Shown one piece after another: positions 2 through 16,250 of a DNA stretch of 23,010 nt. Source of the stretch: a virus; the IMG/VR virus record IMGVR_UViG_3300029319_008488, positions 1 through 23,010 of that record. One strand, 5' to 3'. The first letter of the stretch is position 1; every line of letters starts with the position of its first letter. The position numbers and the translations under genes were made by a program. The notes beneath the pieces are model-generated. The model was given only the letters and a program-made list of their open reading frames with translations, ran no database searches and was not told where the DNA came from.

Positions 2-460
2 ATAAGTGCAAACTATATCCAAGAACAAGATATAAAATCACACACCATTATCGAATTAAATGATGAAATATATGAAAAGGCAGTTAAGTGGGCAAAAGAC
101 AAACCAAATACAAAAATAGTTTCGGGTGATTGGAAAACCATAGAACTTGACGAAAAGTTTGACGCCATATTTTTTGACGCTTATGTTCAAGACAAATTAT
201 ATATGTTGTTTCCAATACACATACTGAAGTTTTGTAAAGTAGGAACTATATTAACTTTCTTTAATCATTTATGGAAACGAACTACATCTTGGTCAAAAGA
301 CTTTTTTACAGACGAGATAAAGTTTTATGAAATAGACGGACGAGTTCCAAAAGATAAACAAAATGGCTATGTTGAGGAACACGATATTTATCATTTGCCA
401 GAATGGATAATTAGAGAACAAGATACAGAGGAAAAGTATAGAAAATGTATTACAAGATAG
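2..460 (+). CDS. GAMT/RMT2-like SAM-dependent methyltransferase (5' partial)
   Basis: The reading frame is open from the left edge of the window, so the N-terminus, including the glycine-rich SAM loop, is missing. The visible part carries the second half of a class I methyltransferase fold: an acidic strand end (TIIELNDEIYEKAVKWAKD) that would bind the SAM ribose, then a SGDW segment, then FDAIFFDAY, then a strand like GTILTFFNHLW. This order and spacing resemble guanidinoacetate N-methyltransferase and fungal arginine methyltransferase RMT2 (IIECND, FDGILYDTY, GGVLTYCN). Family placement is by eye; the acceptor is unknown and could be an amidino group, an arginine side chain or something else. 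It overlaps the next gene by 16 bases, so the two are probably translated together. An ATG at 203 would be an internal start and is not preferred, because the homology begins before it. Confidence 0.6.
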   Translation: MSANYIQEQDIKSHTIIELNDEIYEKAVKWAKDKPNTKIVSGDWKTIELDEKFDAIFFDAYVQDKLYMLFPIHILKFCKVGTILTFFNHLWKRTTSWSKDFFTDEIKFYEIDGRVPKDKQNGYVEEHDIYHLPEWIIREQDTEEKYRKCITR

Positions 461-882
461 ATTTAAGTAATTATGAACCACGAAAGGTTCCAAAGTATCA
501 AGAGTTTACTAACTACAATGATATTAAATGGGCACAAATTGAGATGATATCTGAAGAGTTAGATAACTTTAAAGATTCATTTGGTAAACCTTGGAAAGAG
601 TGGACACTTACAGACTTACGAGATAGACTAAAAGATGGGTGGACATTTTATTTAGTTGAGGGTGGTTGGTGTTTTATTGATTGGAATAGAAAATATCCTT
701 ATTTATGTAATCGTTATGTAATGCCAGAACATAGAAATAAAGGATTGGGTAGTGATTTAGTATGGTTGAGATGTAATGAAATTAAACAACAAGGATACAA
801 AACTGCTATGATTAAGTTAGAGGATTGGAATAAACCAGCACTATCGGTTATGAAAGAAAATATCTTTACTAAAATGGACTAA
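445..882 (+). CDS. GNAT-family N-acetyltransferase
   Basis: This 145-aa protein has the GNAT acetyl-CoA signature at residues 93-103 (MPEHRNKGLGS), where the R-N-K-G-L-G loop binds the pyrophosphate of acetyl-CoA. It is preceded by a beta strand (YLCNRYV) and followed by the usual helix and a strand (TAMIKLED) and then WNKPALSVMKE, where GNAT proteins typically have N-x-x-A. The length fits a single GNAT domain. The first 70 residues are charged and not recognisable. The substrate cannot be read from the sequence. The ATG at 445 lies inside the end of the upstream methyltransferase gene, with GAGG at 428-431 as a possible ribosome binding site. The stop at 880-882 is followed by a 27-base gap before the next start. 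Confidence 0.75.
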   Translation: MYYKIDLSNYEPRKVPKYQEFTNYNDIKWAQIEMISEELDNFKDSFGKPWKEWTLTDLRDRLKDGWTFYLVEGGWCFIDWNRKYPYLCNRYVMPEHRNKGLGSDLVWLRCNEIKQQGYKTAMIKLEDWNKPALSVMKENIFTKMD

Positions 883-909: not shown

Positions 910-2727
910 ATGTCAGTTCAAACAAAAGTAGAAAATTATTTAAATTACATTACAGGAAGTGGTGGTGGTTGGCCATCAAATACTAATATTGGTATTATGG
1001 CAGGTATAGATTATATCAAAGAGGAAACCACCAACAATATATACTTTCACGAAATGAATACTGCTTGTGGAGTTTATGGTTCATATGCCACACAAATGTC
1101 AGTATTTAATAAAATATCCGATTATGTAAATGAACAAGGTTGTTCAACTGCATATGTTTATGGACAAAATGATGTCAGAAAAAAGAATCCATCTACAATT
1201 CAACAACCATTAATTAGTGCAAGTTTTGCAAGACATAATATATCAGTAAACTTTGAATACAATGATAACACTTCAATAACTTACTTTTCACAAAGAGGAA
1301 ATACAGACCATTCAGATAAGTTTCACTTATTTATGCAAACACCTTGGTATAGTGATGATAATTTATTAGAGATTGTAAGTGGTTCATTTAACAAAATAAC
1401 ATTTAGAGGGATATTAAATTCGTCACCAGAAAGTTCAAGTGTAGTCCCACTATTTAATACGAGTTCATTTGTTTCATCAAACCCATATCATCCAGACTTT
1501 TTAGTAAAAACACCAACACAAGACGGAACTGCACACGGAGAAACCGGATTAGAGTTTTACAAATATGTTGATTCAAACGATACTTATCAAAATGCAGTTA
1601 GTAGTGGTTCTTATCTAATTGAAAAGTTTTTAGTTCCGAGTGGTAGCACATTAAATAATGTTGGGTATTTAATGACAAGAAAAATGAACTATTTAATGAC
1701 ACCAACAAAACAAGTTTTATTAGAAGATAAACAAGAGTTTGCCATAACCGAAGCACCTAAGTTTGTTTTGGATGGAGACGCGTGGCACCCTTCAAATTTT
1801 TTAATGTATTCAAGTATTAGTGGTAGTTCAATCGATATGTATGATGGTTCTACTAAACAAGTCCAAGACATCCAGATTGGAGATGTTGTCAAGTCTTATA
1901 AGCCGGTTGGTTTACCGGATGAATCTTTTTATAGGGATTGGGAATCTTATTCCACTTCAGACTTGAGTGGTTCAACAGCTTCTGGTTCAGTTGTAATTAG
2001 AACATTTAATAATAGTCATTTTGGACATTACTTGGTAAATGGTAATGTAAAGATACCAATAATGAATCAGTCAATGATGAAAGGTTCAAGATATTTTTTA
2101 AAACAAGGAGACAATTGGACATTTGCAAAACCATCAGAAATATCAGTAGGAGATTATTTATTTGATAAGAACGGAAATGAAGTTGAAATTACATCGGTTA
2201 GTGAGGTAGGTGAAGACAATACATTTTACTCTCTTGATGTAGAAGATATCGATACTTACTTTACTTCAGATGTTTTAGTTCATAATCTTCCACCAAGAAA
2301 ATGTTTTACAGGTGATACAATGATTACATTAGCAGACGGAACTTATCATAAAATCAAACACATTGAGTTAGGGGCTAAAATAAAAACCTATGATGTTGAG
2401 AAAGGTAAATTACAGAATTCAGTAGTCTTAGAGATTGTAAAAGTATTACACGACAATTTGGTAAAATATAAATTTGATGATAACACAGAAATTAAGGCGA
2501 CTGATGACCACCCATTTTATATCACGAGTGATTCATATATAGATTCAGATTACAGACCATTAGAGGTCGGTGATGAAGTTTTAAATGATGAGTTAAACAA
2601 AATTAAAGTAGTTAGTGTTGAAAAAATTGACGGACTTATAGAAACATACAACATTAATAAAACGGATAGTGGTAAAAACTATTTTGTAAATAAGGTTTTA
2701 GTATCAGATGAGTCAGAAGACACTTAA
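910..2727 (+). CDS. ATP-grasp-like protein with two tandem C-terminal Hint domains
   Basis: This 605-aa protein has three parts. Residues 1-60 include AGIDYI and, about 10 residues later, IYFHEMNT, which resembles the Mg-binding D and E-x-N motif normally at the C-terminal end of ATP-grasp enzymes. Residues 158-245 have a pre-ATP-grasp-like FNKITFRGIL, then DFLVKTPTQDGTAHGETG and YLIEKFLVPSG, which resemble the ATP-binding lysine, the flexible glycine loop and the acidic adenine-side strand. If this is right, the motifs are in permuted order. Residues 301-459 form a first Hint-like domain (ISGSSIDMYDGST, IGDVV, VLVHN) with Ser where Cys is usual. Residues 465-600 form a second one (CFTGDTMITLADGT, then TDDHPFYI) that begins with Cys but lacks a terminal His-Asn. 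ATG 910 follows AGGAGA (899-904). The Hint calls are firm; ATP-grasp is tentative, and a virion protein is an alternative. Confidence 0.6.
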   Translation: MSVQTKVENYLNYITGSGGGWPSNTNIGIMAGIDYIKEETTNNIYFHEMNTACGVYGSYATQMSVFNKISDYVNEQGCSTAYVYGQNDVRKKNPSTIQQPLISASFARHNISVNFEYNDNTSITYFSQRGNTDHSDKFHLFMQTPWYSDDNLLEIVSGSFNKITFRGILNSSPESSSVVPLFNTSSFVSSNPYHPDFLVKTPTQDGTAHGETGLEFYKYVDSNDTYQNAVSSGSYLIEKFLVPSGSTLNNVGYLMTRKMNYLMTPTKQVLLEDKQEFAITEAPKFVLDGDAWHPSNFLMYSSISGSSIDMYDGSTKQVQDIQIGDVVKSYKPVGLPDESFYRDWESYSTSDLSGSTASGSVVIRTFNNSHFGHYLVNGNVKIPIMNQSMMKGSRYFLKQGDNWTFAKPSEISVGDYLFDKNGNEVEITSVSEVGEDNTFYSLDVEDIDTYFTSDVLVHNLPPRKCFTGDTMITLADGTYHKIKHIELGAKIKTYDVEKGKLQNSVVLEIVKVLHDNLVKYKFDDNTEIKATDDHPFYITSDSYIDSDYRPLEVGDEVLNDELNKIKVVSVEKIDGLIETYNINKTDSGKNYFVNKVLVSDESEDT

Positions 2728-3325
2728 AGAAAATAATAACTGGCAGTGGTATATGTCAAGACCAAACTTCTTAACAAACGATGAGTGTGATGAGTTGGTT
2801 GAAACAATTAAGAATACTGAGAAAGGTGAACAAGGTTGTTTAGACGACCACATTGGAGACGACCATAATACAGACTTTAGAAATGTAACAGAGTGGTATT
2901 TACACAAAGATATGAGAGATTATGTCGTAGGTAATTATAGTTCTTTACAACAAAAATTATTTATTGCAGGTAAAGTTTGTAATCAATTGTCTTGGAACTT
3001 TGATATTCAACAAGTTGAGAATAATATTAAAATGATAGAGTATACACCTGGTGATTTTTTTACTTGGCATTCAGACTTTAACAATGGTAAAAGTTCCACA
3101 AGAAAACTCGCTATGATTATTCAGTTATCAGACCCAAAAGACTATGAGGGTGGTTCCACACAATTAGCAATCCAAGACCCAAAGACATTAGAATTTTATG
3201 AAATGCCAAAAGAAAAAGGAACACTATTAGTATTTTGTCCTTTATTGTTTCATAGAGTTACGCCAGTAGAAAGTGGTGTTAGATATTGTATTCAAGAGTT
3301 TATGTTGGGAGACACCTTTGTATAA
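2708..3325 (+). CDS. 2OG-Fe(II) oxygenase (prolyl 4-hydroxylase-like), copy 1
   Basis: This 205-aa protein has the double-stranded beta-helix signature of Fe(II)/2-oxoglutarate dioxygenases: iron ligands H121-x-D123 (TWHSDF) and H182 (FHRV), and R192 (VRYC) to hold 2-oxoglutarate. The N-terminal FLTNDECDELVETI, the YEGGS turn and GTLLVFCPLLFHRVTPV are typical of the prolyl-4-hydroxylase/PKHD branch. It would hydroxylate an unknown substrate using O2 and 2-oxoglutarate. The ATG at 2708 overlaps the end of the Hint gene by 20 bases; AAGG at 2692-2695 is a distant possible ribosome binding site. Two further copies follow at 3811 and 4404, and all three end in the same Gly-Asp-x-Phe-Val tail. Phage genomes from marine samples often carry such genes, but their targets are mostly unproven. 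Confidence 0.9.
   Translation: MSQKTLKENNNWQWYMSRPNFLTNDECDELVETIKNTEKGEQGCLDDHIGDDHNTDFRNVTEWYLHKDMRDYVVGNYSSLQQKLFIAGKVCNQLSWNFDIQQVENNIKMIEYTPGDFFTWHSDFNNGKSSTRKLAMIIQLSDPKDYEGGSTQLAIQDPKTLEFYEMPKEKGTLLVFCPLLFHRVTPVESGVRYCIQEFMLGDTFV
3307..3312 (+). promoter_or_regulatory. Ribosome binding site for a TTG start
   Basis: GGGAGA lies inside the Gly-Asp codons at the end of oxygenase copy 1 and sits five bases before TTG 3318. It decides the start of the SGNH-like gene, since no in-frame ATG exists near the beginning of the homologous region. Confidence 0.55.
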
Positions 3326-3818
3326 ATATTTATATGCAAATGGGTGTAGTTGGGTTGACGGAGACGAATTACAAGATAGAACTCAACAAAGATTTAGTAA
3401 ATTATTATCTAATGATTTAAATCTTACAGAAATAAATCAAGCTATTCCAGCTTGTAGTAATGAAACCATAATAAAAAACACTATGGATTGGATTTACAAA
3501 AATGAAAAACTTATCAATGAAACAATATTTATTATAGGATTTACAGCAGAAAGTCGTTCTAAGTTTGATTGGGATTTTTATGATATTATTTTGTTTCAAA
3601 GATTTTTAGAATCAATTGATGTAAATCACATATTATTTTTTTCATTTGGTAAATCACATAAAGATATTTTTTTAGATAACTTTACTGATAAACCATTTTA
3701 TGAAGTAGTATCAGAAAATATTAGTAAGATAGAAGATGCTTTTTGTGAAAATGGACATCCGAATGAAGAAAGTCACAAAAAGTTTACAGAATACTTAAAA
3801 GGATACATCGATGTATAA
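3318..3818 (+). CDS. SGNH/GDSL-like hydrolase
   Basis: From a TTG start this is a 166-aa protein beginning YKYLYANGCSWVDGDEL. G9-C10-S11 corresponds to block I of SGNH hydrolases (nucleophile serine in G-x-S-W-x-x-G-x-E-L), and HPNEESHKKF near the C-terminus (H153) corresponds to the block V histidine (H-P-N-x-x-x-H). A strand like ETIFIIGFTAESR lies between. Members remove or transfer acyl groups on glycans and lipids; a phage member could be an O-acetyl esterase or acyltransferase, but this is inference. The frame is open upstream to a GTG at 3273, which would overlap the oxygenase by 53 bases. TTG 3318 is preferred because it fits the ribosome binding site and puts the glycine-serine motif at the usual distance from the start. 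The gene lies between two oxygenase copies. Confidence 0.65.
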   Translation: MYKYLYANGCSWVDGDELQDRTQQRFSKLLSNDLNLTEINQAIPACSNETIIKNTMDWIYKNEKLINETIFIIGFTAESRSKFDWDFYDIILFQRFLESIDVNHILFFSFGKSHKDIFLDNFTDKPFYEVVSENISKIEDAFCENGHPNEESHKKFTEYLKGYIDV

Positions 3819-4407
3819 ACCAATAGATATGGATAGTCTAAAGTTAAATCAAAACTTTAGGTGGATAGTGGAGAAAAAAAACTTTTTCAGTCAAGAAGAA
3901 TGTGAAGAAATGAAAAAGTATATTGACGAGAACTCTAAAAGGGCGAGAGGACACGTTTCGGATTTAGAGGGAGACTCTATTAATTTCAAATGGGGTAAAA
4001 AAGATTGTGTTATGAATATTAGCACAAATGAAAGACAAGATATACTTGATAAATTTTGGACTACAATTAATGTTGCAAATCAACTATATTATCATTATGA
4101 TATAAAAGGAATTTATCATAATAGAATTCAAGCACATAGATATGATGTTGATGATACTTATAATCCACATTCAGACTTTCATAATTATAATTTATATAGT
4201 TCATTAAAACTTACATCAATAGTTTTTCTAAACGACCACACAGAATACGAGGGTGGAGAATTTATGTTGTTTGACGGAACAATTATAGAGCCAGAAGTTG
4301 GTAAGTTAGTCATACATCCGGCATTTGCAGGACACGGAGTGGCTCCAATAACCAAAGGACATAGATACTCTTGTGTTTGTTGGGCAGTAGGGGACACCTT
4401 CGTATGA
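3811..4407 (+). CDS. 2OG-Fe(II) oxygenase, copy 2
   Basis: This 198-aa paralogue of the 2708 gene carries the same fold: iron ligands H120-x-D122 (NPHSDFH) and H175 (GHGV), and 2-oxoglutarate-binding R185 (HRYS). The N-terminal NFFSQEECEEMKKYI matches NFLTNDECDEL of copy 1, and the YEGGEF turn and WAVGDTFV tail are conserved. It differs in the region before the HxD motif (residues 45-100), where substrate specificity usually lies, so it is probably not redundant. The start ATG overlaps the SGNH-like gene by 8 bases, with AAGGA just upstream (3799-3803). A second ATG six codons later (3829) is possible but has no better ribosome binding site. Confidence 0.9.
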   Translation: MYKPIDMDSLKLNQNFRWIVEKKNFFSQEECEEMKKYIDENSKRARGHVSDLEGDSINFKWGKKDCVMNISTNERQDILDKFWTTINVANQLYYHYDIKGIYHNRIQAHRYDVDDTYNPHSDFHNYNLYSSLKLTSIVFLNDHTEYEGGEFMLFDGTIIEPEVGKLVIHPAFAGHGVAPITKGHRYSCVCWAVGDTFV

Positions 4408-4973
4408 TACAAAATGACAACTTTAAATTCGTAGTTCATAGAGAGAACTTTTTATCAGTTAGTCAATGCCAGAAGCTAATGAGATACTTAGAAACAGGTG
4501 AACCAACTGAGTCAGAACTCGCAGGTAATTATGACGAGAATATTCTGAACAAAGAGGTTCGTGATAATAAAGAGGTAGTGATTAATAACAAACAATTAAA
4601 TGACAAACTACAAATGGTATTTGAATTGTCTAATCAATCTATTTGGAAATACAATATACAAGAAATGGAAAGGGTAAAAATACTAAGATATGAAAATGGT
4701 GGTAAATACAAGTGGCATACTGATTGTGGTTCAAAAGAAACTTCATTAAGAAAACTAACCGCTATTGTTCAACTATCAGATGAAACAAAATATGAGGGTG
4801 GTAATTTAGAATTTGGTATCACGGATGAGTCGGGTAAAAATAATTACACTGCACCAAAAACACGAGGAAGTATTATAGTCTTCCCATCATTCTTATCACA
4901 TAGAGTTACACCAATCACAAAAGGAAAAAGATATTCATTGATAACTTGGATGTTAGGAGATTGTTTTGTATGA
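4404..4973 (+). CDS. 2OG-Fe(II) oxygenase, copy 3
   Basis: This 189-aa protein is the third tandem member of the family. Iron ligands are H105-x-D107 (KWHTDCG) and H166 (SHRV); R176 (KRYS) would bind 2-oxoglutarate. NFLSVSQCQKLMRYL at the N-terminus, YEGGNLEF and the WMLGDCFV tail match the other copies. Copies 1 and 3 look closer to each other around the core (RKLAMIIQLSD against RKLTAIVQLSD) than either is to copy 2. The start at 4404 is an ATGA overlap with the upstream stop and is preceded by AGGGGA (4389-4394). An upstream in-frame TTG-type extension is possible but would add residues not shared by the paralogues. Confidence 0.9.
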   Translation: MIQNDNFKFVVHRENFLSVSQCQKLMRYLETGEPTESELAGNYDENILNKEVRDNKEVVINNKQLNDKLQMVFELSNQSIWKYNIQEMERVKILRYENGGKYKWHTDCGSKETSLRKLTAIVQLSDETKYEGGNLEFGITDESGKNNYTAPKTRGSIIVFPSFLSHRVTPITKGKRYSLITWMLGDCFV

Positions 4974-7033
4974 AAACAAAAATAGCACTTGTAATTTGTC
5001 CACAATGGTCAATTGAAACACCTTCTTACGCTTTAGGAAATCTTAAATCACATATCGATAGTTCAGATATCGAAGTAAAACAATTCGATTTGAATATGGG
5101 TAGTTATCACTACATCAAATCTACTGAACACTTTCATACTTTTATGGATTGGGGAAATGATATCCCTTGGAATGTAGAGTATAATGTCAAAAAAAATGTA
5201 ATGCCATTCTTTGAAGAGTATTGGGAACCAATCATAGAGGAGTTATCAACATTTGACATAGTGACTTTTACTACATACACATCCAATATCACAATTACAG
5301 ATTATTTTGCAAGATATATAAAACAAAAAAATCCAAAGATACAGATTTGGTATGGAGGCCCTTACTCTTGGTATGCTGAGTGTGCGGGTTTAGTGTCTAA
5401 AGGATACTATAAAGAGTTTGTAGACGCGACAACAGACGCAAACGAAGGAGAACAAGTCATTTCAAATTTAGTAAGTAATTATTTGAAAGACGGACATTAT
5501 GAAAATGTAAAGGGTATTTGGAGATGGGATAAACAAACACCGAGTTATCCAACTGCATTACCAAAGGGTCGTAGTGGTAGAAAACCAATATTTAATGGTA
5601 ATATTCCACCATCAAATCTTAACAAAGTAAAAAGTCCAAGTTGGGATAAAGAAATAATAGATGTGTATAAAGAAGTAGCAGAGAGTGAAAATATGTATCC
5701 AAAAGTTCCTATTCAGGGTTCAAGAGGGTGCACCTTTAAATGCACCTTTTGTCAAGAAACAAGAAGGTATAGATTTAAAGACTTTGATAATATTGTAGAT
5801 GATATGAAACAAGTCGTTAGAGAGACGGGTGTCACTGGTTTTTGGTTTACTGATTCATTGGTTAATGGTTCTATGTCTCAATTTACTAAATTTGTTGATA
5901 GATTAGAATATGAAAAAAATCATAATGATTTCAATATAACTTGGGGTGGTTATTTTAGAACACATAAAAAACTTGACGGAGAATTATTAGAGAAGGCAGT
6001 ATACACTGGCTTAGATTATATGAATGTCGGAACAGAAAATGGAACAAATAAGATTCTGGCATTGATGGAAAAAGGACAAACTTCTGATGATGTTAGTCAT
6101 TTTTTAAAGTCAGCATATAAAGCAAAAGCAATGTTTAACGCTAATTGGATACCAGGATTTCCAAAAGAAAACTATATGGACTTTATGATACAATTAAAAT
6201 TTTTATATGATAATAGAAAGTATTTTGAAAACAATGGTTTGGTAAACCTAATGAGGTCTACTGATATGTTAAACAATACACCATTAGAAGTTTATCGTGA
6301 TAAGTTTGATATATCTACTGATAACAAGTTATTTAATACTTGGGTGAGTGATGATAAAAGAAACTTTTTAGCAATCAGATATCTAAGGTCAAATTGTATT
6401 GAAGCTCTCTTAAATTGTATGGGTTTTACTAAGGACGCAGAGGGAAATGAAAAAGGATATTATCACATTGTAAAAGATAAAAAGTATGGTGGAACACCAC
6501 CTTATTATAGAGCAAGAGTTTTTGCAGACAAATTGTTTATAAAAAAGAATACTGCTAAACTAAGAAAAAGTGTCGATGATATATTTTTAAACTCAAGTTA
6601 TTTAGAGTATGAAAAAAGTGAAAACATAAATGACATCTTAAAAGAAGAATTGAATCAAACATACAAAACTTTTGTTTGGACAATTTTTAATTTATGTGAA
6701 AGTTCAGACATAGAATTTAGTTCATTTGATAAATTTGCAGGTTATAATATCAAGAACTCATATCTAAAATATGAGATAAAACTCAAAACAGATGAAGATA
6801 ATATTTTGTCTTCGTTTAAGTATGAATTACACATTGATAAAAGAGATAAAAAATTGAACGATGAAACAGACAATTCAGACATACACATTAATGAAGAATT
6901 AAATCTAAATTTAGTTGGTAAAAAGATACCAAAAGAAAAGAGTAAAAAAGTAAAAGAGGACTATTTAGATAGTAATAACTTTTACAAACATAAACTTAGT
7001 TTACCAAGAACGCAAATGACAAATCTATACTAA
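4970..7033 (+). CDS. B12-binding-type radical SAM protein
   Basis: This 687-aa protein has an N-terminal Rossmann-like region (KIALVICPQWSIETPSYAL to IQIWYGGPYS, about residues 1-140) typical of cobalamin-binding domains of radical SAM enzymes, though I see no DxHxxG motif, so a bound B12 would lack the usual lower-axial His. The radical SAM cluster motif is C254-x3-C258-x2-C261 (RGCTFKCTFC), followed by TDSLVNG and MNVGTENGT, which suit the TIM-barrel strands of the B12 radical SAM clade. The C-terminal 250 residues are charged and unrecognised. Related enzymes methylate, rearrange or couple unreactive carbons in natural products, lipids and peptides. The start at 4970 overlaps the stop of oxygenase copy 3 as ATGA, with GGAGA at 4955-4959. 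Substrate unknown. Confidence 0.85.
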   Translation: MKTKIALVICPQWSIETPSYALGNLKSHIDSSDIEVKQFDLNMGSYHYIKSTEHFHTFMDWGNDIPWNVEYNVKKNVMPFFEEYWEPIIEELSTFDIVTFTTYTSNITITDYFARYIKQKNPKIQIWYGGPYSWYAECAGLVSKGYYKEFVDATTDANEGEQVISNLVSNYLKDGHYENVKGIWRWDKQTPSYPTALPKGRSGRKPIFNGNIPPSNLNKVKSPSWDKEIIDVYKEVAESENMYPKVPIQGSRGCTFKCTFCQETRRYRFKDFDNIVDDMKQVVRETGVTGFWFTDSLVNGSMSQFTKFVDRLEYEKNHNDFNITWGGYFRTHKKLDGELLEKAVYTGLDYMNVGTENGTNKILALMEKGQTSDDVSHFLKSAYKAKAMFNANWIPGFPKENYMDFMIQLKFLYDNRKYFENNGLVNLMRSTDMLNNTPLEVYRDKFDISTDNKLFNTWVSDDKRNFLAIRYLRSNCIEALLNCMGFTKDAEGNEKGYYHIVKDKKYGGTPPYYRARVFADKLFIKKNTAKLRKSVDDIFLNSSYLEYEKSENINDILKEELNQTYKTFVWTIFNLCESSDIEFSSFDKFAGYNIKNSYLKYEIKLKTDEDNILSSFKYELHIDKRDKKLNDETDNSDIHINEELNLNLVGKKIPKEKSKKVKEDYLDSNNFYKHKLSLPRTQMTNLY

Positions 7034-7059
7034 AAAAAATACATTTTCAGATTATTAAA

Positions 7060-7077
7060 AGATACTTATTTGTATCT
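7060..7077 (+). promoter_or_regulatory. Hairpin before the clamp-loader gene
   Basis: AGATAC (7060-7065) and GTATCT (7072-7077) are perfect inverted arms around TTATTT. The hairpin directly abuts the AAGG ribosome binding site (7078-7081) of the gene starting at 7091, and lies in the only clear gap between regions 1 and 2. It could affect translation or mark a transcript end. The stem is AT-rich, has no T-run after it, and may be chance. Confidence 0.35.
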
Positions 7078-7090
7078 AAGGTTATTCACT

Positions 7091-7522
7091 ATGAAAACAA
7101 AATCACTATTTGACCATATAAAACAAATTACTAATGTTCAGAACCAATTGTATTGGGATAACATTACAGACGCAGACAAGAAAACTTGGTCTAATTATAT
7201 GGTGCATAGATTTTTATCAATGAAAACCGAATGGATAGAAGTTGTAAATGAAATACAACAATATTGGGAATTGAAACCGAAATCAGTTTACCAATTCTAC
7301 ACAAATATACTACCAAGAGGAAATACATATTTAAGATATACTAAATCTAAAAAGAAATCCAAGATAGAAAAGTGGGCTATGGATATATTATGTGATTACT
7401 TTCAAGAAAGTTCAGAAAATATTGAAAAAACACTTGACATTATGGGTAAAGATGTTGTATATTCAATTATATCAAAGTATGGTGTAGATGAAAAACAACT
7501 AAAAAAAATATGGAGTAAGTAA
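7091..7522 (+). CDS. DNA polymerase sliding-clamp loader small subunit (T4 gp62-like)
   Basis: This 143-aa protein matches what I know of the small clamp-loader subunit of T4-like marine phages. It has SLFDHIKQITN near the start, then ADKKTWSNYMVHRFLSM, then VNEIQQY, and then LPRGNTYLRYTKSKKK. In T4, gp62 joins four gp44 ATPase subunits to load the gp45 clamp on DNA for the replicative polymerase, and late transcription also needs the clamp. The large subunit is not in the window. ATG 7091 with AAGG at 7078-7081 is preferred over a TTG at 7070, which would start inside the hairpin. This is the strongest single piece of evidence that the window is phage. It overlaps the next start by one base (TAATG). 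Confidence 0.82.
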   Translation: MKTKSLFDHIKQITNVQNQLYWDNITDADKKTWSNYMVHRFLSMKTEWIEVVNEIQQYWELKPKSVYQFYTNILPRGNTYLRYTKSKKKSKIEKWAMDILCDYFQESSENIEKTLDIMGKDVVYSIISKYGVDEKQLKKIWSK

Positions 7523-7908
7523 TGATTAAAGACACACCTACAAAAGAACAAGTAGAGGCAGTAGATACACAAGATGTCGTAAGATATATGGAGAGAACTT
7601 ATCCTGAAATGACAGGTGAGTTTCTAAAAATACAATCAGAACAATATGAATTGTTTTGTAGAAAACAATATGATTATGGCCCACAGAATATTGCAGTGGG
7701 GACGATTCTAAAAACTAAAGAAGATGTCAAGTTATCATTGTTGGGTATTTGGTTCAGAATGAATGACAAGATAGAAAGACTAAAAACATTATTGATGAGA
7801 AACGGAGAGAATTCAGTTGAGGGAGAACCCGTAACTGATAGTTTTTCAGATGTATCAAATTATGGAGTTATGGCACAAGTAGTGGCGAGAGGTAAATGGG
7901 CAAAATGA
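7522..7908 (+). CDS. DUF1599-family protein (nucleotide-modification-associated domain 1)
   Basis: This 128-aa protein has the pattern of DUF1599: KQYDYG (48-53), a helix with GIWFRMNDKIERLKTL (75-90), and TDSFSDVSNYGVMAQV (105-120). Members are small all-alpha proteins common in phages, and the D-Y-G and dKieRl motifs recall MazG-like nucleotide pyrophosphatases, but no activity is proven here. The family has been linked by genome context to nucleotide modification, hence its name. It follows the clamp loader with a TAATG overlap and runs into the next small ORF through ATGA, so it is part of the replication transcript. Confidence 0.72.
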   Translation: MIKDTPTKEQVEAVDTQDVVRYMERTYPEMTGEFLKIQSEQYELFCRKQYDYGPQNIAVGTILKTKEDVKLSLLGIWFRMNDKIERLKTLLMRNGENSVEGEPVTDSFSDVSNYGVMAQVVARGKWAK

Positions 7909-8033
7909 GTAAACAATATACAATGAAATGTAGAGCAGGAGAATATTATTCAGAAGGATATTTCCAATTAGGTTGGGAGATATTCAAACATAGATGTTGG
8001 CATTTATGGAACCACGGTAAATGGATGGATTAG
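7905..8033 (+). CDS. Small Trp-rich hypothetical protein (42 aa)
   Basis: A 42-codon ORF begins with an ATGA overlap at the stop of the DUF1599 gene and ends at TAG 8031-8033, 13 bases inside the next gene. This tight fit between two real genes makes it likely to be translated. The protein is rich in aromatic residues (four Trp, four Tyr, two Phe) and has two Cys (C9, C31) plus H29, H33 and H37, which could bind metal, but no known domain is recognised. No membrane segment or signal peptide is seen. Function unknown. Confidence 0.55.
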   Translation: MSKQYTMKCRAGEYYSEGYFQLGWEIFKHRCWHLWNHGKWMD

Positions 8034-8866
8034 TGGGTAAGATAAGTTATAGTCAGTTCGCAATGTGGGACAAATGTCCTTACACTTGGAAAGCAAATTA
8101 TGTGGATAAAGCAGAGACTTTCAAGGGTAATATTTACACCTTGTTCGGTAGTGCTATTCACGAAACTATTCAAGCATATTTAGTTTGTTATTATGAACGA
8201 ACAATCAAAGAAGCTGATGAATTACCATTACACGATATTTTGATTTATCGTATGAAAGAATTATATAAAGAATCCAAAGAAAGATATGGTGATGAGTTTG
8301 AAGTAGACCAAAAAGAAATGATTGAGTTCACTAATGACGGATTTGCTATCATTGATGAGTTCTTAAAAAGAAAAGGTAGTCATTTCAAAAAGAAAGATAC
8401 AGAGTTAGTTGGTATCGAGATGAATCTAAATTACGACTTACCAAAAGATATGAAGTTTGTTGGTTATATGGATGTTGTTCTACACGACAAGAAAACAGGT
8501 AGAATGAAAATCATTGATATCAAATCATCTACTATGGGGTGGAACAAATATATGAAAGCCGACAAGAACAAAACTAATCAGTTATTGTTATATAAATACT
8601 TTATGGCAAAACAATTAGATATATCGATAGATAAAATAGATATTGAATACTTAATATTAAAGAGAAGATTGTATGAAAATATGATGTATCCACAAAAAAG
8701 AATTCAGGCGTTCTCGCCAGCAAGTGGAAAACCAAGTGTTAACAAAGTTATGAAAAGGTTAGATGAATTTATCAATGAGTGTTATGATGACAAAGGTAAA
8801 ATCATACCTAACGAATATGAAAAATGTGAGAAACACTTAAAGTGTAGAATGTGTAAGGATTTATAA
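8021..8866 (+). CDS. PD-(D/E)XK nuclease with Fe-S cysteines (Cas4/RecB-like)
   Basis: This 281-aa protein has the RecB/Cas4 nuclease layout. SYSQFAMWDKCPYTW holds C19, then GSAIHETI has the conserved His (H47), then GYMDVV gives D151, IIDIKSS gives D166-x-K168, and NQLLLYKY supplies the Q187 and Y191 helix. The C-terminal C269-x5-C275-x2-C278 together with C19 would bind a [4Fe-4S] cluster, as in AddB and Cas4. It is likely a 5' to 3' or end-resecting DNA exonuclease for phage recombination or replication. There is no Cas1 or repeat array nearby, so a CRISPR role is not supported. The ATG at 8021 overlaps the small ORF; an internal alternative is not needed because the SYSQF motif is close to the start. 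Confidence 0.87.
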   Translation: MDGLVGKISYSQFAMWDKCPYTWKANYVDKAETFKGNIYTLFGSAIHETIQAYLVCYYERTIKEADELPLHDILIYRMKELYKESKERYGDEFEVDQKEMIEFTNDGFAIIDEFLKRKGSHFKKKDTELVGIEMNLNYDLPKDMKFVGYMDVVLHDKKTGRMKIIDIKSSTMGWNKYMKADKNKTNQLLLYKYFMAKQLDISIDKIDIEYLILKRRLYENMMYPQKRIQAFSPASGKPSVNKVMKRLDEFINECYDDKGKIIPNEYEKCEKHLKCRMCKDL

Positions 8867-9327
8867 TGATTGTGCCAGTATTAAGATTAAAGTTATCAGA
8901 CTTTTTAGGAACAGACTATGAGAAAGAAGTTCTTGATAAACTTAGAGAGATAAACAATAAAGACTATATGCCACCATTTGAAATATATTTGTGGTATGAT
9001 AGAGATAATGACAAAGTTGATTTAAGTAGATTAAAAGATTTTATTGTTGATTGGGAAAGTAAAGGAGATTTCAAAAGTAGAACCATTATAGTTCCTGAAT
9101 TCTTTGATAGACCAGTTGACTTTATTTGGTATGATATAATACCAAGAGAGGTGTATGATAATCATCATATACAATATTCAAGATTTAGTTGGGTATACTC
9201 AAATGCAGAAACTGGCATTTTAGAGGGTTTAAAAGAATATATAAAAACCTTCGAGTTTATAATAACGGACAGACTACCGAGAAAACAAAAGAGAAACGAC
9301 TATGAAAATAGCAATCATAGGAAGTAG
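8866..9327 (+). CDS. Hypothetical protein
   Basis: I do not recognise this 153-aa protein. It has alternating strands and helices (FEIYLWYDRDND, SRTIIVPEFF, VDFIWYDIIPREVY, FEFIITDRL) and a basic, polar C-terminus (RLPRKQKRNDYENSNHRK). There is no signal peptide, membrane segment or cysteine pair. The start is a TAATG overlap with the Fe-S nuclease, and the end overlaps the SLOG gene by 26 bases, so it is co-translated with DNA-processing neighbours. A link to the nuclease is only inferred from position. Confidence 0.7.
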   Translation: MIVPVLRLKLSDFLGTDYEKEVLDKLREINNKDYMPPFEIYLWYDRDNDKVDLSRLKDFIVDWESKGDFKSRTIIVPEFFDRPVDFIWYDIIPREVYDNHHIQYSRFSWVYSNAETGILEGLKEYIKTFEFIITDRLPRKQKRNDYENSNHRK

Positions 9328-9700
9328 AACTTATACCAACAAAACAAAAATGAAAAACTTTATGTTCAGATTAAAAATGGAACATACAGATGTGGAGGTA
9401 GTTAGTGGTGGTGCCAAAGACGGAGCAGATAAATACGCGAAGAAATTTGCATTAGAATTTAAAATACCTTATAGTGAGTTTCCACCACAACATCAACCAC
9501 ACAATATGCATTGTGTAATGGAGGCATATAATTACGGAAAACCTTACAATGTAGGTTATTATCACAAAAGAAATAAAGATTTAGTAAAATATTCAGATAA
9601 AGTTGTGGCATTTTGTAAAGACGGAAACATAACTAACGGAACAAAGTCAGCATTAGAATATTGTAAAAAAATAGATAAAAAGTTTGTTATTTTAAGTTAA
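9302..9700 (+). CDS. SLOG / DUF2493-family nucleotide-binding protein
   Basis: This 132-aa Rossmann-like protein starts with IIGSRTYTN (5-13), has VVSGGAKDGADKYAKKFA (33-50), the YHKRNKDLVKYSDKVVAF stretch with R90-N91, and NGTKSALEYCKK (112-123). These are the usual elements of the YpsA/DUF2493 branch of SLOG proteins (related to DprA and lysine-decarboxylase-like proteins), which bind nucleotides or nucleotide-derived ligands. Phages carry many of these; roles in NAD or nucleotide-signal handling have been proposed for relatives but none is proven here. It is the last gene before a 36-base AT-rich gap. Confidence 0.82.
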   Translation: MKIAIIGSRTYTNKTKMKNFMFRLKMEHTDVEVVSGGAKDGADKYAKKFALEFKIPYSEFPPQHQPHNMHCVMEAYNYGKPYNVGYYHKRNKDLVKYSDKVVAFCKDGNITNGTKSALEYCKKIDKKFVILS

Positions 9701-14388: not shown

Positions 14389-15129
14389 TTGAAAAAAGTT
14401 GGTGTCATAGGTATAAAACAATCTTTCGAAGATGAGGGAGTTTTAGATAAAGATTTGGTTACAATCAGTCAATTATGTAAACTGACCGAGTTAGAGTTGA
14501 GTGTCAAGATTGGTGGTTGTGAAGCAATATCTGATATTTATAGGTGTGTAGACTTAGATGTAGATTCTATTGTCGCACCTATGATAGAGTCAACATTTGG
14601 ATTACAAAAATTTACCGAATCAATAACAAATAATCTCAATGAATATAACAAGTCTAATACAAAATATTTTATTAACATAGAGAGTAGACAGGCATTTGAG
14701 AATATTAATTCAATATTAGAATCACCTTCATCTAAAACACTTAATGGTATAGTAGTAGGTCGTTCTGATTTAACAAAGTCATTTGGGTATGGTAAACAAG
14801 AAGTTATGTCAGAGCATATATGTGAAGTGGTTAGAACAATATTAGAGAAAGCTAAAAGGTTAGGATTAAAAACATATATGGGTGGAAATATAGGTAAGTC
14901 GAGTGTAGAATTCATAAAAGACTTATTTGAAAAGGATTTATTAGATTGTATTGAAACAAGAAATGTTATATTAAAACTTAATAAAGATAATGTTAATAAC
15001 TTGTTTGAGACAATTAAATCTATGTTAAATTTTGAATCTGAGTGGTTAGAGTATAAACACAAACACTATTCAAAGTTTTCAAAGAGTTATTTAAACAGAA
15101 GTAAAGAAATAAAAAATAGATTAGTATGA
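14389..15129 (+). CDS. HpcH/HpaI-type aldolase (citrate lyase family)
   Basis: This is a TIM-barrel aldolase: VGVIGIKQSFEDEG at the start, LSVKIGGCEAISDIYRC, SIVAPMIEST, KYFINIESRQAF with the metal-binding Glu strand, and GIVVGRSDLTKSFG as the R-x-D-L loop. Members make or split carbon bonds with pyruvate or phosphoenolpyruvate-like enolates. Beside a CMP-sugar synthetase it could build a 3-deoxy-ulosonic acid, but that is inference. The shown start is TTG 14389 (246 aa). The frame is open back to ATT 14359, which overlaps the previous stop and has GAGGA at 14345-14349. That start would add IKKLTENLKS, which fits the family N-terminus better. The stop overlaps the next gene as ATGA. Confidence 0.78.
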   Translation: MKKVGVIGIKQSFEDEGVLDKDLVTISQLCKLTELELSVKIGGCEAISDIYRCVDLDVDSIVAPMIESTFGLQKFTESITNNLNEYNKSNTKYFINIESRQAFENINSILESPSSKTLNGIVVGRSDLTKSFGYGKQEVMSEHICEVVRTILEKAKRLGLKTYMGGNIGKSSVEFIKDLFEKDLLDCIETRNVILKLNKDNVNNLFETIKSMLNFESEWLEYKHKHYSKFSKSYLNRSKEIKNRLV

Positions 15130-16250
15130 CAAGACCAGAACAATTACAAGAACTACTTCACACAAATCAGTATTTTAAAATGATTTGTGGAGCAGGTAAT
15201 GAAGATACAGAAGAGGTTAGAAGACTTACTATGATTTATACATTAGCAGGTGCCAAAGGATTTGATATATCTGCGACACCCGAAGTGGTAAAGGCAGCTA
15301 TGAATGGTATCGATAGGGCATATGACATTTCAAGTAAGTTTAATATTGATATCGGTATTAGACCTTACATAATGGTTAGTGTTGGAATGCCAGGTGACCA
15401 TCACGTTAGAAAAGCACTAATAAATGATGACACTTGTATCAAGTGTGGTTTATGTGTTGCACCAGTTTGTCCAACGGAGGCAATAGAACCAATTCAAATC
15501 AGAGTAGAGACTGCTTTTGTTATAACTGAAAAGTGTATAGGTTGTGGTGCTTGTAGTGCGGTGTGTCCCATTGTAGAGTGTATAACATATAGTCATAATG
15601 ATAAGTTGTTAGAGGAACTACTTCCACATTGTATTGAGTTAGGTGCAGAAAATATAGAACTACATGCTGCAGTTGCAGAAACTGATGTCATAATGAAAGA
15701 GTGGGAAACCGTGGTAAAATCGAATCCAAATGGACACAATAGTATGTGTTTGGATAGATTACATATTGGGAACTTTGGACTAAAAGATAGGATTGAAAAA
15801 GCATTAGATATGACTAAAGACGGATTGATGATATTACAAGCTGATGGATATCCAATGAGTGGCGGTCAAGATGATTATAATACAACATTACAAGCAGTTG
15901 CAACAGCAGATGTTGTAAATAAAAACTTTAATATGAAACTACATAAAAAGACAAAAGAATTATTATACAAAAGAAGAAGAAAGATAAATGTGGTTTTGTC
16001 AGGTGGAACAAATACATTGACTTCAGACTTAGCAGTTCAGAGTAATGTAAGATTCCAAGGAGTTGCAGTAGGGACATTTGCAAGAAACTTAGTTTATAAT
16101 CACATCAAAGAGAAATATTCATATGAAGATAATAAATTCTATGATGATTATGATAATATAGAAGAAGCAGTCAAGATTGCACAAAACTTGGTAGATAGTA
16201 ATATAAATAAAGGTGAAAGTTATGTCGAAAACACTCGTATTTGCAGTTGA
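15126..16250 (+). CDS. LdpA-like iron-sulfur TIM-barrel protein
   Basis: This 374-aa protein has a TIM-barrel-like start (MICGAGNEDTEEVRRLTM, then LAGAKGFDISATPEVVKAA) and end (VVLSGGTNTLTSDLA, 289-303, then GVAVGTFAR). Inserted between them are two ferredoxin-type [4Fe-4S] motifs: C104-x2-C107-x2-C110-x4-C115-P and C137-x2-C140-x2-C143-x3-C147-P. The start (ICGA, LAGA, D-I-x-A-x-P-E-V-V) and the MVSV segment before the clusters resemble cyanobacterial LdpA, a redox-linked protein known for changing circadian period; similar proteins of unknown role occur more widely. It could be a redox enzyme acting on a sugar or acid intermediate. It overlaps the aldolase by ATGA, which suggests the two work together. 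A role in a host clock is not supported. Confidence 0.72.
   Translation: MTRPEQLQELLHTNQYFKMICGAGNEDTEEVRRLTMIYTLAGAKGFDISATPEVVKAAMNGIDRAYDISSKFNIDIGIRPYIMVSVGMPGDHHVRKALINDDTCIKCGLCVAPVCPTEAIEPIQIRVETAFVITEKCIGCGACSAVCPIVECITYSHNDKLLEELLPHCIELGAENIELHAAVAETDVIMKEWETVVKSNPNGHNSMCLDRLHIGNFGLKDRIEKALDMTKDGLMILQADGYPMSGGQDDYNTTLQAVATADVVNKNFNMKLHKKTKELLYKRRRKINVVLSGGTNTLTSDLAVQSNVRFQGVAVGTFARNLVYNHIKEKYSYEDNKFYDDYDNIEEAVKIAQNLVDSNINKGESYVENTRICS

Follow-up and report, generated by a model that had tools for sequence, protein, structure and literature searches.

A marine T4-like phage protein family with a predicted circularly permuted ATP-grasp domain and variable Hint arrays

The 23,010-nt window analyzed here (the whole stretch of DNA, from IMG/VR virus record IMGVR_UViG_3300029319_008488) contains at positions 910-2727, with AGGAG ahead of its ATG, an open reading frame (ORF) of 605 residues. 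In our best reading of the evidence, with a probability of roughly 0.6, this protein is a phage-encoded amide ligase whose BIL/Hog-like Hint cassettes can be removed, and it is the island partner of oxygenases. The family, with a compact ligase domain of ~300 aa, and its fusion to Hint domains both appear to be undescribed, and it is the undescribed family and its variable Hint array, not the permutation itself, that are unusual in this ORF.

Table 1. Features of the ligase-Hint gene and its neighbors, with positions in the window
Feature	Position	Strand	Basis
GNAT acetyltransferase, upstream neighbor	445..882	+	Pfam E 1.4e-7
Circularly permuted ATP-grasp domain, predicted (residues 1-300)	910..1809	+	AF2 pLDDT 80, pTM 0.81; Foldseek/VIA to glutathione synthetase superfamily
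D34, predicted Mg ligand (= ScGS Asp130)	1009..1011	+	Invariant in 47 N-domains; ScGS ligands from PMC2845819
E48-M-N50, predicted Mg-binding E-x-N (ScGS Glu146)	1051..1059	+	E and N invariant; top-scoring hhalign segment against glutathione synthetase
K162, predicted first ATP lysine, pre-ATP-grasp helix	1393..1395	+	Invariant; pattern as GS 'GTKKVQ', YgiC 'SNKALL'
K200 to D205, predicted second ATP lysine and reduced G-loop/Mg position	1507..1524	+	K42/R5, D28/H19
E238, predicted hinge/adenine-side residue ('YLIEKF')	1621..1623	+	Invariant
Hint1 (residues 301-459), S301 for Cys1, no TxxH, H458-N459 kept	1810..2286	+	tblastn to phage NCTB intein-domain protein E 3e-11; Pfam second stretch; alignment
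Linker LPPRK (residues 460-464)	2287..2301	+	Single-Hint homologues end naturally at equivalent VHNLPPK
Hint2 (residues 465-605), Cys465, T531-x-x-H534, C-terminal VSD for HN	2302..2724	+	Alignment; VIA
2OG-Fe(II) oxygenase, start overlaps ligase-Hint gene end	2708..3325	+	PHROG_61 E 3e-32
Second 2OG-Fe(II) oxygenase	3811..4407	+	PHROG_61 E 9e-34
Third 2OG-Fe(II) oxygenase	4371..4973	+	PHROG_61 E 2e-37
B12-binding radical SAM protein, frequent neighbor	4946..7033	+	Pfam Radical_SAM E 7e-11

Predicted fold and motif order of the N-terminal domain

When the N-terminal domain was modeled with AlphaFold2 (residues 1-309, 42 sequences), one of five models reached a pLDDT of 80.1, with a pTM of 0.81, and the other four lay at 66-72; residues 148-159 were weakly modeled, and the domain was weaker in the full-length model. 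A β-rich virion fold had been named beforehand as the outcome that would speak against an ATP-grasp protein, and structure prediction gave a permuted ATP-grasp fold of the glutathione synthetase (GS)/YgiC type instead. All 17 Foldseek matches in the PDB at E<=1e-3 belong to this superfamily (glutathione and homoglutathione synthetases, nematode GS-like effectors and YgiC), the best being 1m0w at E 4.8e-7. The first 26 rows from VIA-align are likewise all GS/YgiC superfamily members (Z 11.5 to 7.8), and the next row is an unrelated fold at Z 5.3. The alignment to 1m0w covers 258 residues with an rmsd of 5.3, and across the superfamily, which also spans glutathionylspermidine and trypanothione synthetases, model residues 1-298 are matched end to end with sequence order kept. 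The non-permuted enzymes Ddl (D-Ala ligase) and PylC, by contrast, align only with model residues ~74-307, through their N-terminal ~208-296 residues and at Z ~4.4, as expected of a circular permutation. We hold with high confidence that residues 1-300 adopt a circularly permuted ATP-grasp fold; as modeled, the permutation is the same as the known one of glutathione synthetase, the human enzyme included (for the eukaryotic enzyme: Polekhina et al. 1999, as cited in PMC2845819). BFVD gave no match at E<=0.001, a result that leaves room for relatives.

The motif order that first drew attention to this protein is present as described by the sequence-only reading, with AGIDYI at residues 31-36, IYFHEMNT at 44-51, FNKITFRGIL at 160-169, DFLVKTPTQDG at 196-206 and YLIEKFLVPSG at 235-245; the Mg motif lies ahead of the pre-ATP-grasp and ATP-lysine motifs, the reverse of the ordinary ATP-grasp order. 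In our proposal the chain would begin at the helix before the last β-hairpin of the fold, so that the Mg motif (D34, E48-x-N50) comes ahead of the half that binds the nucleotide (K162, K200, E238). Accordingly placed in the predicted structure, the last hairpin with its E-x-N is at the N terminus, and the domain has the residues conserved in the permuted superfamily, both the ATP lysines and the Mg ligands (D, E-x-N), position 200 being K or R. The C-terminal ATP-grasp part, earlier thought to be missing and replaced by Hint domains, therefore sits at the N terminus, and the Hint domains are additions. A circularly permuted ligase had also been thought unusual: structure comparison supports the permuted ATP-grasp fold, but permutation is not unusual per se, being known from GS and from glutathionylspermidine synthetase (GspS)/YgiC.

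Sequence searches do not recognize this kinship. Pfam found Hint/intein-type domains but no ATP-grasp domain in the ORF, and Pfam and PDB sequence searches gave no confident ATP-grasp match. Profile matches from Pfam, PHROG and PDB near the E-x-N motif are treated as leads only; they include CPSase_L_D2 (E 0.0035, residues 30-63 of one homologue) and an S6-glutaminyl-transferase PHROG matched by five members (best E 0.0042). An hhalign comparison with a three-sequence GS alignment placed DYI..EMNT on DYM..EINT at E 0.094, a score equaled by 5 of 200 column shuffles, and a comparison with 15 GspS/YgiC sequences gave no signal against column-shuffle controls. This lack of a confident match is what would be expected if chance ATP-grasp-like motifs had arisen in an unrelated fold, or if the gene were a mosaic or an assembly artefact, which we regard as extremely improbable given the structure match, the same motif order in more than 100 marine viral homologues and purifying selection (dN/dS far under 1 for the N-domain and for both Hint1 and Hint2; N-domain dN 0.10-0.28, dS 0.65-0.99). 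An artefact is excluded by the homologues.

The 47 distinct homologous N-domains, 46-100% identical to that of the window, all keep the motif order, and D34, E48, N50, T51, K162, R166 and E238 never vary among them. Four acidic Mg-site residues of yeast GS are Asp130, Glu146, Glu386 and Glu442 (PMC2845819); equated by motif order, on which all our residue equivalences to GS and YgiC rest, D34 and E48 would be the natural counterparts of the first two. Other positions are less constant: position 200 is K in 42 domains and R in 5, position 205 is D in 28 and H in 19, and the Gly-rich G-loop is reduced. These substitutions could mean that the fold is no longer catalytic and has become a domain for binding or scaffolding, as it might in a protein of the virion or of host interaction that is delivered together with its Hints. 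We consider this unlikely, since D34, E48, N50, K162 and E238 stay unchanged across 50% divergence, and R and H can still serve an ATP site. That residues 1-300 form an active ligase is, judging from the model and these residues, the outcome we favor, with modest confidence.

Comparison with characterized enzymes narrows what such a ligase might do. The eukaryotic-type glutathione/homoglutathione synthetases (1m0w, 2hgs, 3kal) share its chain order and permuted fold (Z 11-11.5 over ~257 residues), with the D..E-x-N-T Mg motif and first ATP lysine equivalently placed, but they are larger (~480 aa against ~300), have no Hint fusion, and possess a KPQREGGG G-loop and a GGVAAG A-loop that the phage domain lacks; the sequence match to GS is not significant. 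Glutathionylspermidine synthetase, YgiC/YjfC and trypanothione synthetase (PF03738) have the same permuted fold (Z 8-9.7) and the same succession of D..E-x-N, SNK lysine and K-P lysine, but the phage family has no Pfam match or hhalign signal to them and lacks the invariant R of R-x-D (R100 in the GspS/YgiC alignment). Matched through the D-Y and E-x-N-T anchors, the GS substrate arginine (HsGS Arg125, PMC2845819) falls at position 32, two residues before the Mg aspartate, which is G in 32 of the 47 N-domains, N in 12 and S in 3, and never R. By this arginine test the protein is therefore neither a glutathione nor a glutathionylspermidine synthetase, and γ-Glu-Cys is probably not its substrate. 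YgiC-like proteins, found in 136 phage records, form a distinct family.

Hint domains as a variable array

The two Hint domains reported behind the N-domain were recovered by Pfam as two stretches of PT-HINT (E 1.4e-10) and two of Intein_splicing (E 3.5e-10), and they differ in the residues that they keep. Hint1 directly follows the ligase in every ORF examined; it has S, T or I in place of Cys1, lacks TxxH, and invariantly retains H458-N459 followed by [IL]P. The middle Hints of longer homologues have Cys1, TxxH and HN, as do A-type BIL domains. For the most part, the last Hint retains Cys1 and TxxH but carries VSD at the place of HN. Neither Hint1 nor Hint2 has the C-terminal His-Asn, +1 Cys/Ser/Thr and C-extein that together characterize an intein, because Hint2 ends in VSD near the C terminus and Hint1 is without Cys1 and has L/I at +1. 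Hint2 instead shows the pattern of B-type BIL domains and of Hog, in which Cys1 and TxxH are kept and the C-terminal His-Asn is lost (PMC7765530), and VIA-align places it closest to Tetrahymena BIL2 of a ciliate BUBL locus (Z 21.8), followed by a C. thermocellum BIL (18.9) and the hedgehog Hint (18.6). The phage Hints differ from both BIL and Hog in standing in arrays of one to four behind a predicted amide ligase, and in the degenerate N end of Hint1.

In 67 distinct complete ORFs there is one Hint in 21, two in 27, three in 12 and four in 7, these being the complete ORFs found with a pattern that demanded FHLF and so missed carriers of FHLW or FHFF N-domains. Four-Hint homologues (L112, L124, L392, L396, L397, L399, L402 and L403) are about 895-925 aa long. 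Pairwise identity of the N-domain correlates at 0.90 with that of Hint1 but at 0.40 with that of the last Hint, and some pairs with ligases 95-98% identical have last Hints only 43-77% identical; ligase and Hint1 therefore behave as one unit, and later Hints as exchangeable. By these sequence comparisons Hint1 co-evolves with the ligase, whereas members exchange the last Hint among themselves. Homologues with a single Hint finish at VHN[IL]P(P)K/R, beside the end that cleavage at Cys465 is predicted to leave in the window protein (VHNLPPRK). They were considered as truncated genes and this was rejected, as no Hint2 remnant was found in any forward frame within 1.5 kb downstream.

We propose that Hint1, having lost Cys1 and TxxH and kept His-Asn, is a permanent partner of the ligase, and that the Hints after it are exchangeable self-processing cassettes. 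Since Hint2 keeps Cys465 and TxxH and has lost His-Asn, it should form a thioester at K464/C465; its removal by cleavage, or transfer to a nucleophile, would then leave ligase-Hint1-...VHNLPPRK, with nearly the C terminus of the single-Hint homologues. From the residues present, cleavage at Cys465 is slightly favored. The nucleophile might be a protein or small molecule, in which case the α-thioester of ligase-Hint1 would be aminolyzed and a target tagged. The structural closeness of Hint2 to BIL2 and its invariant Cys1 and TxxH without His-Asn are consistent with such conjugation, but plain hydrolytic cleavage explains the same residues, and with 21 of 67 members having no Hint2, conjugation by that domain cannot be essential to the family; we think conjugation quite improbable. 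More speculative, and very unlikely, is a self-processing ligase in which BIL-type cassettes, freely gained, lost and swapped, conjugate the ligase to a target via an α-thioester while the ATP-grasp core adds a second bond; if true, it would be the viral parallel to ubiquitin-BIL (BUBL) conjugation in ciliates, and it would act on a peptide product together with GNAT and 2OG-Fe(II) oxygenases.

Distribution and genomic setting

Scans of viral contigs with the N-domain, each wider than the last, found 13, 89, 128 and 147 encoding stretches (the lists overlap), with identity reaching down to about 46-50%. The same domain found no homologue among GTDB genomes or phage isolates (best E 0.6 in the latter). 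The carriers are marine T4-like phages. A literature search for phage, ATP-grasp and Hint domain jointly found nothing, a weak sign of novelty in a search whose coverage mostly leaves out subscription papers.

A 2OG-Fe(II) oxygenase gene lies downstream in 99 of 103 distinct loci, and the remaining four stop at a contig edge (99/99 testable); a GNAT gene lies upstream in 64 of the 85 loci uncut on that side. Further 3' lie additional oxygenases, frequently accompanied by a B12 radical SAM protein, and then a clamp-loader A subunit, and in a 73 kb relative the upstream genes encode an AAA clamp-loader ATPase and, as named from their translations, a probable sliding clamp and a DNA polymerase. 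The setting consists of T4-like replication genes and an accessory island; it is no structural module. A gp23 search of related contigs gave no match anywhere, a result that carries no weight.

This setting also bears on the non-catalytic alternative. Hint1 relatives in phage records are annotated as tail fibre or virion structural proteins, which would suit a delivered binding domain, but the gene stands among metabolic and replication genes, outside any structural module. A virion-fibre role was rejected, as the likeness to annotated virion proteins is confined to the Hint part and the genome position argues against it.

Several other genes were noted. A related virus (L422, IMGVR_UViG_3300020421_002453) encodes at 6772-9534 a 920-aa TonB-dependent receptor (CarboxypepD_reg and TonB plug, E 9e-15) within its T4-like replication region, between a ribonucleotide-reductase-like gene and DNA polymerase, which suggests a Bacteroidota- or Marinimicrobia-like host. 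The window itself encodes a small protein with a GCSW motif recalling SGNH hydrolases and no Pfam match (3273-3818), a YspA/cpYpsA-type SLOG protein (9302-9700, Pfam E 3e-9) and, in a phage sugar-gene cluster, a 4Fe-4S dicluster protein with an LdpA C-terminal domain (15126-16250), which adjoins an HpcH/HpaI aldolase (14389-15129).

Proposed activity and implications

We suggest that residues 1-300 would act as a compact carboxylate-amine (amide) ligase that depends on Mg-ATP and belongs to the GS-like permuted ATP-grasp superfamily: ATP would phosphorylate the carboxylate, and the amine would then attack the acyl phosphate. Beside the clamp-loader genes, the accessory island would combine GNAT, the ligase, two to four 2OG-Fe(II) oxygenases and often the B12 radical SAM protein, and together they probably make or alter a small peptide-like molecule or a protein of the host. 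A working parallel is the fungal pathway to E-64, where the GS-like ligase Cp1B, which has no detectable sequence identity to characterized ATP-grasp enzymes, acts after an Fe(II)/2OG oxygenase (PMC12568646). Cp1B (9cjn) is among our structure matches, at a Z of only 8.4; like the phage domain it is GS-like, unrecognizable by sequence and paired with an Fe(II)/2OG oxygenase (Cp1A), but it is fungal, its substrates are known and no Hint is reported.

On the amide-ligase reading, the family adds a compact, sequence-unrecognizable member to the circularly permuted ATP-grasp ligases and, within the searches made, is the first in which a ligase of this kind is fused to Hint domains. A single conserved enzyme that naturally carries from one to four Hints, the last of them swapped, presents BIL-like domains as mobile, removable C-terminal modules, and the conserved island, with its GNAT and 2OG-Fe(II) oxygenases, points to a modification of peptides or proteins that is directed by the phage.
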